This document shows positions 49,839-55,593 of a stretch of 55,593 bases of DNA, one piece after another. Origin of the DNA: Pirellulaceae bacterium (GTDB lineage Bacteria > Planctomycetota > Planctomycetia > Pirellulales > Pirellulaceae); the NCBI GenBank assembly GCA_020852965.1, contig JADYZV010000098.1:1-55593 (forward strand), read 5' to 3'. The notes beneath the pieces are model-generated. The model had not been told where the DNA came from, ran no database searches, and saw nothing but the letters and a program-made list of their open reading frames with translations. Each line of letters opens with the position of its first letter. Within the stretch, counting starts at the first letter, position 1. The position numbers were made by a program, and so were the translations under genes.

Positions 49839-50299
49839 AAGTCACTAGCCCCCTCGGTGAACTCTGTGCCTCTGTGTTTCAATTTGCCGTACTCGTACTC
49901 GAAGCGAACGCGGCTACGAGCACGAGCACGAACTTGCAAGCGACTTTGCGATTTTGGTTGATTCCGCTCGACAAGCAGGGTGGTGATCAGTGAAAAGTGT
50001 CGCAATAGCTGTCGAATTCTCGACAAACTGCCACGAATGGGCAAAAAGACTCAAATTGACTGGCTGGAAGGCCAAGTGTGTGGCGATTTAGACAATCCGC
50101 TGTTTCGCCTTTTTTCTTAGGCTGTTATCGCTATAATTAAAAATCTCTAAATAGACATTGCCAAGATTTGGCGGGGGACCGCCGAGATAATTTGGCTAAT
50201 CGCTATAATTAGAAGTCTCCTAAAGCGTTTGTCGTAGCGGATCACAATCGGCACCGACTTGCGAAAAACACCTAGTCAATCTCATTACGAGTCTGCATG
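49839..50299. other. Leader region with duplicated TATAAT-containing blocks
   Basis: About 460 nt. ATCGCTATAATTA followed by A/G-rich TCTCTAAA occurs at 50127-50151 and again (TCTCCTAAA) at 50199-50224, each containing TATAAT. Neither has a clear -35 box. Short repeats of ACGAGC and GAACGC near 49885-49940 encode nothing recognisable. Confidence 0.5.
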
Positions 50300-52198
50300 A
50301 TGGCGGATCATTGGAAATCGATCGCAAACCGTTTAGGCGCGCCCGGCGTGGACGAGCCCGAAGTGGAAACGCCGGCCGAGCAGCCGGCACCCAAAGCCGT
50401 TGGCCCCTCCCCGGCATCGTCCAACAAGCCGCCAGTGCGAGATACAACTCCCACGACTGCGGAAGCTCCCAAGGCTAGGCGTGAGACTGCGAGCCCTGAT
50501 TCTGCGATATCACCGGAGGCTCCCGCAACCAAGCCGGCTGAGTTTTACTTCGACCCCAACCAGCCGATTCCCGATGAAGCACTGTCGTTCAAATCCTCGC
50601 GTCCCTCGCTAGCTCCAAACGAACCGGCTCAGCCGCGTGAGCCGGGCAGGACCACTTCGACACCCTCCACTCCCCTACCGGCCGCCAAATCGTACAGCGA
50701 GCCATCCCCACCCTCAGCAGCGGAAGCAAGACGGGAAGCTCCAAGTATGCCTGATCGATTCGAACCAGAAACACCACCCGCCGCACCACCTCCCAAGCGC
50801 AAGTCGTCTTGGGAGTCGCTGGCCAATATGTTCAATATCAAAGTCGACCGTTCCAAACCGGTCGAAGCTGCACCGGAACCCAAGGCGGCTGAGACCAAAC
50901 CAATAGATACTCGGACCAGCTCGTCTCGCCCTGTGCGCCCCGCCGCCGAGGACGACCAGCAGTTGTCGATTTTTGCGGACGATCGACCACCGCGCTCCAA
51001 TCCCGCGCTCGATGCGATGTTTGGCGATGCTCCGCAAGGCGGCACGCAGGCTCGCAGCGACGAGTGGGGCAAGCCGCGCGTGATCGACGATCTCGGCTGG
51101 GATAGCGACGACGATACGCCCGCACCTATGCGCGGGGGGTTCGCGGAGAGCGATGAGCCGCAAAGTGACGCTATGTCAGGTTCCAGCCGCGAGGATAGCG
51201 AACTCGGTGACGAGGAGGAGGCACCGCGCCGTGGCCGCCGCCGTCGTCGTGGTCGTCGCGGTGGACGTGGCGATAGCAGCGGAGAATCATCTGCGGCTGG
51301 CGCTTCACGTGGCCCTACCGCAGATCGAACTAGCGCCACTCGCTCGAGCACTTGGGGTGGCTTAGACGACTCGCTGGAAAACGAAGAGGATCTGAGTGTC
51401 GGCGACGATCCCTGGGACGAACCCGAGAGCTTTGAAGTTGCCCAGTCTGACGCCCGGGACGAGCTCGGCGATGACAGCGACAGCGACGATGCTGCAGATG
51501 AACTGTCGGCAGACGGAGAGGTCTTGCGACGCTCCTCGCGTAGACGTCGGCGCGGACGTGGCCGTAGTGGAAGGGACCGCGAAGCGGGCGAAGTGACAGA
51601 CCAAAGGACAGACGAAAGGCCCGTCGCGCGTCCTGCAGAACGTGGGCGTTCGGCGCCCGCGCGGACAAGCTCCGCCCCACGCAATACCGATGCTTTGAGT
51701 AAGTCTGTCGGCTTCCGTTCCGATTCCGACGATGAAAATTTTAGCGACTCCTCCGATCGGCTCGATGCACCGCGTTCCGCACCCTCGTCGCGACGCGCAG
51801 AACCGCGAGGTGAGGGACGTTCCGAAGCGCGCGACAGCGAAGAACGAGGTTCACGCCCGCGTCGACGCCGCCGCGGTGGCAGCAGCAGCAGCGACTCAGT
51901 GAAAAGCGCTGATTCGCGACGCGAGACATCGTCCACTGGACGCGGCCGCACAGAGGGACGCGCGACCGGTCGCCCATCGGACGAAGAAGGCCCCATCGAA
52001 GACGCTTTCGATGATATTTCGCTCGGCCCAGCTTTCGATGGCGAAGAGGACGACATACAACCTGGAGATGGACTGCATAGAAGCATCCCAACATGGGCCG
52101 ATTCCATCCAGTCACTGGTCGAAGTCAACATGGAAAACCGCAAGCGCGGAGACAATCGCGGTGGTACCCCTCGCGGGCGCCCCCGCGGACGACGATAG
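50300..52198 (+). CDS. Disordered Arg/Asp/Ser-rich protein, possibly nucleic-acid binding
   Basis: A 632-aa protein (an ATG just before at 50297 is equally possible). Only the first 15 residues (MADHWKSIANRLGAPGVDEP) and a short segment SSWESLANMFNIKVDRSKP near 170-190 look like structured helices. The rest is low complexity: Pro/Ala-rich to 170, then alternating acidic stretches and basic patches such as RRGRRRRRGRRGGRGD, RRSSRRRRRGRGRSGRD and RRRRRGGSSSS. It ends in GGTPRGRPRGRR. The RGG/RG patches suggest RNA or ribosome binding. It lies about 120 nt upstream of the SRP RNA gene in the same direction. Confidence 0.65.
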   Translation: MADHWKSIANRLGAPGVDEPEVETPAEQPAPKAVGPSPASSNKPPVRDTTPTTAEAPKARRETASPDSAISPEAPATKPAEFYFDPNQPIPDEALSFKSSRPSLAPNEPAQPREPGRTTSTPSTPLPAAKSYSEPSPPSAAEARREAPSMPDRFEPETPPAAPPPKRKSSWESLANMFNIKVDRSKPVEAAPEPKAAETKPIDTRTSSSRPVRPAAEDDQQLSIFADDRPPRSNPALDAMFGDAPQGGTQARSDEWGKPRVIDDLGWDSDDDTPAPMRGGFAESDEPQSDAMSGSSREDSELGDEEEAPRRGRRRRRGRRGGRGDSSGESSAAGASRGPTADRTSATRSSTWGGLDDSLENEEDLSVGDDPWDEPESFEVAQSDARDELGDDSDSDDAADELSADGEVLRRSSRRRRRGRGRSGRDREAGEVTDQRTDERPVARPAERGRSAPARTSSAPRNTDALSKSVGFRSDSDDENFSDSSDRLDAPRSAPSSRRAEPRGEGRSEARDSEERGSRPRRRRRGGSSSSDSVKSADSRRETSSTGRGRTEGRATGRPSDEEGPIEDAFDDISLGPAFDGEEDDIQPGDGLHRSIPTWADSIQSLVEVNMENRKRGDNRGGTPRGRPRGRR

Positions 52199-52255
52199 CT
52201 GGCAGTGCTTGATTGCGCGTTGAAAGGGACTCTGCCCACTACGATTTGGAATAAC

Positions 52256-52286
52256 TTGACAATTAACCGCTAGGGACACTTCTAAT
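52256..52286 (+). promoter_or_regulatory. Possible sigma-70-type promoter for the SRP RNA
   Basis: A perfect TTGACA at 52256-52261 is followed after 19 nt by TCTAAT at 52281-52286. The spacer is longer than ideal and the -10 is weak. Transcription would begin about 25 nt before the mature RNA end. Confidence 0.4.
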
Positions 52287-52317
52287 ATCTGTCCCAGCGG
52301 CGTACCATCTAGTTTGA

Positions 52318-52431
52318 GAAACCTGCCTGACAGTGGCTCTCGCGAGGGGGAGCCGTGAACCTGGTCAGGACTTAACTGTAGCAGCCATAAGCGGGGTACT
52401 CTTGTGCGAGGGCCTCTGACGGGCAGGTTTC
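52318..52431 (+). ncRNA. ffs: Signal recognition particle RNA (small bacterial type)
   Basis: The roughly 114-nt RNA closes with a 10-bp stem (GAAACCTGCC with GGCAGGTTTC). The conserved domain IV is GGTCAGGACTTAACTGTAGC followed by AGCC, which keeps the Ffh-binding internal loop (GGTCAGG / AGCAGCC). The apical loop is UAAC, closed by ACU/UGU, rather than the usual GGAA. It lies 22 nt upstream of dnaX, the classical position in many bacteria. It forms the SRP with Ffh for co-translational targeting. Confidence 0.85.
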
Positions 52432-52453
52432 ATTCTTTCTGAGATTCGCTGCG

Positions 52454-54319
52454 ATGGACAATCCCGCTACTGCTCCTAAAGATTCCAGCGGTTACACGGT
52501 CGTCGCTCGCCGTTACCGACCGCGATCCTTTACTGAGCTGATCGGCCAAGATCACATTGCCCACGCCTTAGACGCCGCAATCGCTACCGGGCGTGTGGGC
52601 CATGCCTATCTATTTACCGGCGCGCGAGGAGTCGGCAAAACCTCGTCGGCGCGCATCTTTGCCAAAGCGCTCAATGCGTCCGACGGCGTCGAACAAGAAC
52701 TGGCGGCCGACATGGCCCAGTCGATCGATGCGGGCGACGATATGGATGTGATCGAAATCGATGGTGCCAGCAATCGCGGCATCGAAGAGATCCGCACGCT
52801 GCGGGCCAACGTCAACGTACGTCCGAGCCGAGCGCGATACAAGATCTACATCATTGACGAAGTGCACATGTTGACCAATCAGGCCTTCAATGCACTGCTC
52901 AAGACCCTGGAAGAGCCGCCGCCGCATGTGAAGTTCATCTTCTGTACGACCGACCCCGACAAGTTGCCGATCACGGTTCTGTCGCGCTGCCAACGCTTCG
53001 ACTTTGTGCCCATTAAGCTCGATGCCATCCAAGCTCGTTTATCAGAGATCTGTAAGGCAGAGGGTTTTGAAGCCGACGAGGACGCGCTAGCACTGCTGGC
53101 TCGGCGCGCTGCCGGCTCGATGCGCGACAGCCAATCGCTGCTCGAACAAGTGATGAGCTTTTCGCAAGATCGCATAAGCGTCGAACAAGTCCAGCAGTTG
53201 CTCGGGATCGCCGACGAAGGACGTTTGCTCGCGCTGGCCCAGACGTTGGCCGATCACGATGCGCTGCGCGCGATGGAATTGGTGGACGAAGCGGCCCGCA
53301 GCGGGGCCGACGCGGGGCAGTTGGCCGAACAACTGCTCAACTACTTTCGCGACGTGATGGCGGTAGGAGTTGGTGGCGGCCCTGAACTGCTCAAGCTGGC
53401 CAATCCCGCCGGCCACGCTGAACTCAAGGAGCTGGCCGCAGGCTGGGGAGTGCAATCGATCCTATCATCGATTCAGATTCTAGACGAGTCGTTGGTGCGC
53501 ATGCGCACGAGCGTATCGGCTCAAGCCTTGCTGGAAGTCGCGTTGGTGCAAATTTGCCAGTTGTCACAACTGGCCTCGATCCCCGCGTTGTTGGAAGCGA
53601 TGCGCGCTGCCGGTAGTGGACCAGCCGCTATAGCTCCGCATGCAGTCAGGCAAACCCCTGCTAGCCAGGTTGCATCCGCGCAATCCACTGGTGAAAAAAA
53701 AAACATTGAACCGACCGCCGAAGTCACTTCCACGCGCAGCATAACCGCGCCCAGTCCCCTCCCGTCGCCCGCAGCCTCCCCTGCGACACCACCTTCAACA
53801 ACCCCCGCTCCAGCGCCCGCAGCAGCGCCCGCAGCAGCGCCCGCAGCAGCGCCCGCAGCAGCGCCTAACAGCGGCGGCTCGCCCGCCGTGCCGCTGGCCG
53901 ACGAGCAGGGCTCGCTGGAAGCGCTACAACAGTGGAAGAAAGCGCTGGGTTCGATTAACGACATGTTGGCCGACTACGCCGGACTGGCGATCGCCGTGAT
54001 TCCCAATGGTGCCGACCATTGGAATGTGCTGTTTCCGCCCGGTGCGGTGCGACCTCGCGAGGTGTGTGAGCAACCCGAACGGCGGCAGGCGCTCGAAAAG
54101 GCCGTAGCCCAAATCTTGCAACGCGCAGTGCGATTGACGTTCGCGGTCATGCCCGGCGAGCCAGTGCGGACTGTCGCTGCGGCGCAACCTTCGACCAATC
54201 GCGTGCAGAAGATGCGCGAGGTTTCGGAGAATCCGTACGTCAAGAAATGTTGCGAAGCACTCGATGGCGAAATACTACGCGTCGATGCATCGGCGACGAA
54301 CATGGCTAGTAGCAGGTAG
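52454..54319 (+). CDS. dnaX: DNA polymerase III subunit tau/gamma, without the zinc module
   Basis: A 621-aa clamp-loader subunit. It starts with the typical YTVVARRYRPRSFTELIGQD. Walker A is GARGVGKTS (residues 57-65), Walker B IYIIDEVHML and the SRC motif LSRCQRFDF; domain III runs to about 375. The usual zinc-binding segment between KALN and DVIEIDGASNRG holds no Cys here (residues 74-91 read NASDGVEQELAADMAQSI). A linker (400-480) contains an A10 run at codons 414-417 and four APAA repeats, then a tau-specific C-terminal domain (SLEALQQWKKALGSINDMLA). Slippage on A10 would end the chain after about 418 or 430 residues, giving a gamma-like form. It is followed by ybaB. Confidence 0.95.
   Translation: MDNPATAPKDSSGYTVVARRYRPRSFTELIGQDHIAHALDAAIATGRVGHAYLFTGARGVGKTSSARIFAKALNASDGVEQELAADMAQSIDAGDDMDVIEIDGASNRGIEEIRTLRANVNVRPSRARYKIYIIDEVHMLTNQAFNALLKTLEEPPPHVKFIFCTTDPDKLPITVLSRCQRFDFVPIKLDAIQARLSEICKAEGFEADEDALALLARRAAGSMRDSQSLLEQVMSFSQDRISVEQVQQLLGIADEGRLLALAQTLADHDALRAMELVDEAARSGADAGQLAEQLLNYFRDVMAVGVGGGPELLKLANPAGHAELKELAAGWGVQSILSSIQILDESLVRMRTSVSAQALLEVALVQICQLSQLASIPALLEAMRAAGSGPAAIAPHAVRQTPASQVASAQSTGEKKNIEPTAEVTSTRSITAPSPLPSPAASPATPPSTTPAPAPAAAPAAAPAAAPAAAPNSGGSPAVPLADEQGSLEALQQWKKALGSINDMLADYAGLAIAVIPNGADHWNVLFPPGAVRPREVCEQPERRQALEKAVAQILQRAVRLTFAVMPGEPVRTVAAAQPSTNRVQKMREVSENPYVKKCCEALDGEILRVDASATNMASSR
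53694..53703 (+). promoter_or_regulatory. A10 slippery run in dnaX
   Basis: Ten A in a row cover codons GAA AAA AAA AAC. An extra A gives ...AAA CAT TGA (stop at 53707-53709); loss of one A gives a stop at 53742-53744. Both off-frames end at once, as in dnaX genes that make gamma by slippage (A9 in Thermus). Confidence 0.65.
53813..53860 (+). repeat. Four 12-bp repeats in the dnaX linker
   Basis: GCGCCCGCAGCA is repeated at 53813, 53825, 53837 and 53849, encoding Ala-Pro-Ala-Ala. This lies in the flexible linker between the ATPase core and the tau domain, so copy-number change would keep the frame. Confidence 0.85.
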
Positions 54320-54472
54320 ACGGGGCTCTCCCCAAAACAACGTGCGAGCGTAGCTGCGGTCACCAGACCACAGAACACTCCCGCCTGGTGACAGTCGCTA
54401 CAAGGTTTACGAGACGATGATTAGAACCACACGTCAACTCCGAAGTTTTTCACTTATAAGGACCAAAGTTTA

Positions 54473-54814
54473 ATGTTTAAGAATCTTAGTGGTCTGGCCC
54501 AATTGATGCGTCATGCGGGCTCGATGGGAGAGCGCGTCAAAGAGCTCCGTGCCACTTTGGCCGAAGCTCAGGCGACCGGCAGTGCGGGCGATGGACAAGT
54601 CCATGTGGAAATCACTGGCTTGGGTACCGTCACGCGGCTCCGCCTGTCGCCCGAGTTGATGGACGCCAACGATGTCGAGCGGCTAGAGGAACTGATCCCA
54701 GCGGCACTCAATGAAGCGCTGACCAAAGTGCGAGCAATGCACATCGAGAAGATGCGCGAGGCGACCGGTGGTATCGACCTGCCGGGGCTGGATGAAGCGC
54801 TGGCCAATCTTTAG
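54473..54814 (+). CDS. ybaB: YbaB/EbfC nucleoid-associated protein
   Basis: A 113-aa dimeric DNA-binding protein. The N-terminal helix (MFKNLSGLAQLMRHAGSMGE) is followed by the strand core HVEITGLGTVTRLRLSPELM and a C-terminal helix (LNEALTKVRAMHIEKMREAT). The order dnaX-ybaB-recR is the standard bacterial one. It has 150 nt upstream to dnaX and 35 nt to recR. Confidence 0.95.
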   Translation: MFKNLSGLAQLMRHAGSMGERVKELRATLAEAQATGSAGDGQVHVEITGLGTVTRLRLSPELMDANDVERLEELIPAALNEALTKVRAMHIEKMREATGGIDLPGLDEALANL

Positions 54815-54849
54815 CACCGGCCATTCAACTCGGATAATGTGGATTTGTG

Positions 54850-55449
54850 ATGAACACTAACAATGGATCTGTCAATGAACTGATCGATCAACTCGGACGG
54901 CTTCCAGGAGTAGGGCGCAAGTCGGCAGAACGATTGGCCTATCACCTGTTGCGAGTCAGCAAGGGGGAAGCGCTCGCTCTAGCGAAAGCGATTCGTGATG
55001 TGCGCGAAAATGTCAGTTACTGCAGCGTCTGCTACAACTTGGCCGAGGGCTCACTGTGCGAGATCTGTCGCGATCCCAATCGCGATACGTCAAAGCTGTG
55101 TGTGGTCGAGCAACCCCGCGACTTGATGGCGCTCGAGCAGGCCGGCGTGTATCGCGGGATGTACCATGTATTGCTCGGCCGCCTCGCACCGCTCGAAGGC
55201 ATCGGCCCCGATCAGTTGACCATCGACCCGCTTGTCGAGCGGGTTCGCCGTGGCAATTTTTCCGAGATCATTATGGCCACCAATCCAAACGTCGAAGGGG
55301 ATGGCTCGGCGCTATACATCACCAATCAATTGTCCGAATTCCCGATCGAAGTCACTCGATTGGCGCGTGGCATCACCACGGGGAGTGTGTTGGAGCATAC
55401 CAACCGCGAGATTTTGGCCGACGCGCTCTCAGGCCGCCAAAAGATATGA
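54850..55449 (+). CDS. recR: Recombination mediator RecR
   Basis: A 199-aa protein that acts with RecO/RecF to load RecA. The HhH motif is LIDQLGRLPGVGRKSAERLA (about 12-30). The Cys4 zinc finger is CSVCYNLAEGSLCEIC, and the Toprim domain starts at LCVVEQPRDLMALEQAGVYR and continues through YHVLLGRLAPLEGIGPDQL. The C-terminus (LARGITTGSVLEHTNREILA) is normal. The ATG at 54850 is taken; a GTG directly before it is also possible. Confidence 0.97.
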   Translation: MNTNNGSVNELIDQLGRLPGVGRKSAERLAYHLLRVSKGEALALAKAIRDVRENVSYCSVCYNLAEGSLCEICRDPNRDTSKLCVVEQPRDLMALEQAGVYRGMYHVLLGRLAPLEGIGPDQLTIDPLVERVRRGNFSEIIMATNPNVEGDGSALYITNQLSEFPIEVTRLARGITTGSVLEHTNREILADALSGRQKI

Positions 55450-55453
55450 GTGG

Positions 55454-55593
55454 TTCTTAGTTCTTAGTTCTTAGTTCTTGGTTCTTGGTTCTTAGTTCTT
55501 GGTTCTTGGTTCTTGGTTCTTGGTTCTTGGTTCTTGGTTCTTGGTTCTTGGTTCTTGGTTCTTGGTTCTTGGTTCTTGGTTCTTGGTTCTTGG
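55454..55593. repeat. Heptamer array TTCTT(A/G)G, at least 20 copies, at the right edge
   Basis: From 5 nt after the recR stop to the window end there are exactly 20 units. Units 1-3 and 6 are TTCTTAG; the rest are TTCTTGG. The array runs off the end, so its true length is unknown and the contig probably broke here. Confidence 0.95.

Follow-up and report, generated by a model that had tools for sequence, protein, structure and literature searches.

A conserved A10 run in planctomycete dnaX as a probable transcriptional slippage site for tau and gamma

The dnaX gene of a Pirellulaceae bacterium contains ten consecutive A's between its clamp-loader domains and its C-terminal part (the window analysed is the whole stretch of 55,593 nucleotides of contig JADYZV010000098.1). 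This raises the question of whether the run serves to make a short gamma subunit next to full-length tau and, if so, whether the shift would occur during transcription or translation. Transcriptional slippage in Thermus thermophilus dnaX was reportedly described by Larsen in 2000. In that species, according to parts of PMC1088944, PMC3711429 and PMC5009743, slippage on an A9 run yields a short gamma and a long tau. In E. coli dnaX, a −1 ribosomal frameshift takes place on A_AAA_AAG, with a Shine-Dalgarno sequence and a hairpin as stimulators (parts of PMC3711429 and PMC5009743).

The gene lies in the order SRP RNA, dnaX, ybaB/ebfC, recR (Pfam, NCBIfam, Rfam), and the following features are relevant to the question:

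52329-52423: bacterial small SRP RNA, directly 5' of dnaX (RF00169, 47.3 bits, gathering threshold 40)
52454..54319, + strand: dnaX, DNA polymerase III gamma/tau subunit, 621 aa if there is no slippage (tau); from Pfam, NCBIfam and E. coli similarity
52454..53578, + strand: codons 1-375, AAA ATPase, lid and clamp-loader domain III, common to both predicted products (PF13177, PF22608, PF12169)
53694..53703, + strand: putative A10 slippery run, codons 414-417 (GAA AAA AAA AAC), with G and C flanks; from the sequence and an AlphaFold2 model
53707..53709, + strand: TGA in the −1 frame, which would terminate the short product encoded by A11 or A8 transcripts; from reading the sequence
53742..53744, + strand: TAA in the +1 frame, which would terminate the short product encoded by A9 or A12 transcripts; from reading the sequence
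53811..53865, + strand: 12-bp tandem repeat, 4.6 copies, encoding a Pro/Ala linker that separates the run from the tau domain; from a repeat search
53867..54319, + strand: tau-specific C-terminal region, absent from the predicted short products; from the AlphaFold2 model and conservation in the class

Elsewhere on the contig, an open reading frame of 633 aa at 50297-52198 is of low complexity and rich in Arg, Ser and Pro, and matches nothing in Pfam or NCBIfam at E 0.001. The contig opens with long homopolymers (C14 and G23, positions 1-43), perhaps an assembly-edge artefact, and past recR a 7-bp tandem repeat (TGGTTCT, 20.4 copies, 55451-55593) runs off its end.

The dnaX reading frame matches TIGR02397 (dnaX_nterm, 417 bits) in the NCBIfam search, and the Pfam AAA, lid and domain III matches span residues 32-375. 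The protein resembles the E. coli clamp-loader subunit, since a profile of 45 relatives aligns along residues 2-635 of E. coli tau. In the AlphaFold2 model, built from 45 sequences (mean pLDDT 76.8, pTM 0.55), the N-terminal part is folded, with helices, to about residue 385; residues 396-478 all have a pLDDT below 50 and are predicted to be disordered; and a folded C-terminal domain follows, with elements at about residues 484-603 and a pLDDT mostly above 90. This last region had zero Pfam matches in the search and is kept across the class in a profile of 126 genes, the present one among them. The A10 run lies inside the disordered linker after domain III, so that short forms would retain domains I-III but none of the tau domain; the initial annotation had proposed the same, and the end of Pfam domain III at residue 375 bears it out.

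Re-reading of the sequence reproduced exactly the run and the two stops that had been described before, at 53707 in the −1 frame and at 53742 in the +1 frame. As in Thermus-type slippage, a run of at least nine A's lies past domain III and ahead of the tau region and is followed by near stops in both non-zero frames. Predicted translation gives 621 aa (65.8 kDa) from an A10 transcript, 418 aa (44.9 kDa) from A11 and 429 aa (46.0 kDa) from A9, in agreement with the forms of about 45 and 65 kDa expected earlier; A8, A12 and A13 transcripts would give 417, 430 and 622 aa. The short forms are predicted to end in KKKH or KKTLNRPPKSLPRAA.

The A10 run is very probably a programmed transcriptional slippage site that yields tau and gamma. 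According to the proposed mechanism, RNA polymerase would gain or drop A's while copying the run, generating a mixed population of dnaX mRNA. Transcripts with A10 or A13 would encode tau. In those with A8, A9, A11 or A12, a stop would follow the run at a distance of one to about thirteen codons, and the products would be gamma-like proteins (417-430 aa), that is, clamp-loader domains I-III devoid of the C-terminal tau domain. We infer that both DnaX proteins would be produced.

If the run has such a role, it should persist among relatives, and its absence from them had been named beforehand as an observation that would speak against gamma synthesis by slippage. Quite the opposite was found. 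An A9-A11 run occupies the corresponding position of the linker, past domain III, in 186/215 dnaX genes of the class (102 A10, 81 A9 and 3 A11), in 107/117 genomes and 57/62 genera of the family, and in all ten readable linkers of the genus, own genome counted (A10 in nine, A9 in one). Outside the class, a run of at least nine A's was present in the zone in 8/61 genes of the phylum, roughly half of which belong to AT-rich loci. In other phyla, it was present in 15/72 usable loci, and in every one of these the two remaining frames are stopped within 35 nt; the majority of these loci are AT-rich, and three (L284, L324, L351) have a G+C content of 58-61%. The run is missing from 29/215 class genes, including that of the family genome G060, and an alternative slippery motif sought in these 29 genes gave none common to them. 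Together with the low count in the rest of the phylum (8/61), these absences imply that gamma made by this route is not indispensable.

These counts rest on the following samples. DnaX-like matches, paralogues counted, were obtained in 118/119 genomes for the family, 15/15 for the genus, 114/117 for the order, 148/148 for the class and 119/119 for the phylum. In the family, 109/119 genomes were used, the other 10 being without a usable gene (G056 has a piece lacking the N-terminal part); seven genomes from the genus search and four from the order and class searches brought the sample to 120, of which 117 remained once three genes truncated at contig ends had been removed. The genus search covered 15 genomes, in four of which no gene ran through the linker. 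The order outside the family contributed 58/102 genomes and the class outside the order 40/113 (class loci L356-L360 uncounted). From the phylum outside the class, 64/113 genomes were taken, 61 of them with enough sequence. For other phyla, 80/557 loci were kept; removal of five with planctomycete titles and three short ones left 72. Loci were partly best matches and partly picks for spread, chosen before the linkers had been seen, and a few of the phylum picks had already been noted for short open frames.

Several single loci in these samples deserve mention. The dnaX gene of the phylum relative G450 (L382) contains two A10 runs, each with both other frames stopped within 26 nt. Genome G127 has three dnaX copies with near-equal scores on separate contigs (L036, L043, L055), perhaps owing to assembly duplication. 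For four short, run-less loci from outside the class (L391, L393, L394, L396), none of the frames yielded a convincing match to tau.

Within its own genome, the run is exceptional. It is the only exact A10 on both strands of the 8.37-Mb genome and also the longest poly-A run, and runs of at least nine A's number 14, the 13 besides dnaX having exactly nine A's each. Scaled to 8.37 Mb, a first-order Markov estimate derived from the window, a crude null, predicts about 15 runs of at least ten and about 58 of at least nine, versus 1 and 14 observed. Runs of nine or more A's therefore look depleted in this genome, which fits the earlier claim that selection normally removes them. The exact A10 count ranges from 0 to 22 per genome among 119 family genomes; hence, the single A10 is peculiar to this genome rather than general. 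One of the other 13 A9 runs is at codon 5 of an ATP-synthase-like reading frame, another (L071, 1502-1510) falls near codon 254 of a glycosyltransferase reading frame of 425 aa with Pfam support, and the remaining ones sit in putative reading frames of at most 172 aa.

Evidence that the run acts as a signal comes from its codon phase and from the stops behind it. Among class genes, the run occurs in all three codon phases; since the phase is free, it is the nucleotide run and not the peptide that is conserved. For the stops, one gene was taken from each of 127 genera whose tau part is in the zero frame. The median distance from the run to the first stop is 6 nt in the −1 frame and 11 nt in the +1 frame, and both other frames are stopped within 30 nt in 81% of the genera (the +1 stop of the present gene, 38 nt past the run, falls outside this mark). 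In comparison, both frames are closed within 30 nt at 6.3% of 3810 control sites in the linker and 4.8% of 3810 control sites in upstream gene sequence, and in run-less genes (n=29) at 3.1% of 1305 sites in codons 395-439. Moreover, a synonymous-codon null gives median distances of 51 and 82 nt versus the observed 6 and 11 nt (Wilcoxon 1e-17 and 1e-12), with single genes seldom significant (mean p 0.35 and 0.37) because the amino acids past the run themselves favour the stops.

This double closure bears directly on the rival that comes closest, namely a programmed −1 shift of the ribosome at the A run, of the kind known from E. coli dnaX, with termination at 53707. Long A runs allow tRNA-Lys to re-pair, the −1 stop is very near both here and in the class, and A_AAA_AAG stands in frame in 19/127 genera; a −1 ribosomal shift on A_AAA_AAA may also occur without stimulators. 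However, slippage of the transcript needs both other frames closed, whereas a −1 ribosomal shift needs only one, so that the closure of the +1 frame, almost as tight as that of the −1 frame and superfluous for a −1 shift, points to transcript slippage. The free codon phase of the run is likewise at odds with a ribosomal shift. Nor did the stimulators of the E. coli site appear in excess. A Shine-Dalgarno-like motif precedes the run in 3/127 genera versus 3.3% in controls and is absent from the 24 nt before the present run. Downstream structure in the 127 genera is slightly weaker than in controls (p 0.02), and at the present site folding is no better than in shuffles (z +0.75), unlike a hairpin of the E. 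coli type. The in-frame A_AAA_AAG shows no excess either, the next base being G in 19/68 genera of that phase versus 38/127 overall, and the present site reads AAA AAA AAC instead of the E. coli heptamer. An Rfam search of 50000-55593, with matches considered up to E 1, gave no frameshift element. Ribosomal frameshifting is thus unlikely to be the programmed event, and the comparative signature favours slippage by RNA polymerase, the Thermus type, over the E. coli type. The initial annotation had left open whether an added A or a −1 ribosomal shift was involved; the former is favoured by the two closed frames and the latter is not.

Genomes in which the tau frame has moved provide another argument. 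In five of them, the tau domain past the run lies in another frame: −1 in L097, L147, L412 and L416, and +1 in L133, a mixture not expected of a −1 ribosomal shift. E values of tau matches obtained with the DNA after the run alone lie between 2e-52 and 3e-12 (search set of 15 frames); for L416, whose first match began before the run, the DNA past the run alone confirms the frame (E 2e-13). Mixed shift directions are considered a mark of transcriptional slippage in the main text of Antonov 2013 (PMC3711429). Three of these genomes have one A more or less than a congener, and the others stand alone; homopolymer assembly error is therefore possible. A further locus with tau in the −1 frame (L419), which has no A run, was set aside as a likely sequencing frameshift, though this is unproven.

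The one-A differences between congeners, together with a zero frame that is closed just past the run in G115, G047 and G102, might also be read as phase variation at the DNA level, in which replication slippage toggles cells between a tau-making and a gamma-only state. Tau is normally essential, and gamma-only cells would be expected to die unless their transcripts slip; run lengths are confined to 9-11, and transcriptional slippage accounts for the same facts, which makes phase variation highly improbable. It is scarcely credible that the run has no role, arising by chance or from a lysine stretch kept at the protein level in an unstructured linker, for although the linker is Pro/Ala rich and predicted to be disordered and 29/215 class genes dispense with the run, it holds the same position in the other 186 even though an exact A10 is single in its own genome, its codon phase varies, and double stops accompany it and are rare where it is missing.

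Transcriptional slippage being the preferred reading, its history was traced on a DnaX tree (FastTree, 214 rows: 153 from the class, one per genus and state, and 61 others). The class forms one clade with a support value of 97, and parsimony places the run at its base; one parsimony reconstruction comprises 29 changes, namely 9 gains and 20 losses. When labels are shuffled across the whole tree, the average is 63 changes versus the 29 observed, and shuffling within the class gives 29.5 versus 29, indicating that absences are unclustered within the class on this tree. It may be tentatively suggested, at somewhat less than even confidence, that dnaX slippage was present in the class ancestor, has since undergone about 20 losses, and is sufficiently robust for the frame to drift, so that in some lineages gamma is templated and tau slipped, in either direction.

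The present gene resembles Thermus thermophilus dnaX in its poly-A run within a single open reading frame and in the near stops in both other frames; it differs in having A10 instead of A9, in class-wide conservation, and in that the Thermus products were measured, whereas those described here are predicted from sequence. From E. coli dnaX, which shifts in the −1 direction only, it differs in that heptamer, Shine-Dalgarno and hairpin stimulators are not enriched, and shares with it an A-rich site and, as the predicted outcome, gamma and tau from a single gene. The main text of Antonov 2013 (PMC3711429) describes two-ORF dnaX genes of nine species with A10 between the gamma and tau parts and predicted transcriptional slippage. 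There, tau requires a shift, whereas tau is the unshifted product here; the five shifted-frame genomes correspond to that two-ORF type. The same main text mentions the phylum once, in a count table, and among the papers listed by literature searches there was no account of slippage in planctomycete dnaX. Slippage in dnaX is already known; its class-wide conservation with repeated losses seems to be new.

If this reading is correct, production of gamma by slippage would be a trait of the whole class rather than a Thermus curiosity. The approximately 20 losses would represent natural experiments on the purpose of gamma, which has long been debated in E. coli. In addition, class dnaX records with an apparent frameshift at an A9-A11 run may be real genes.
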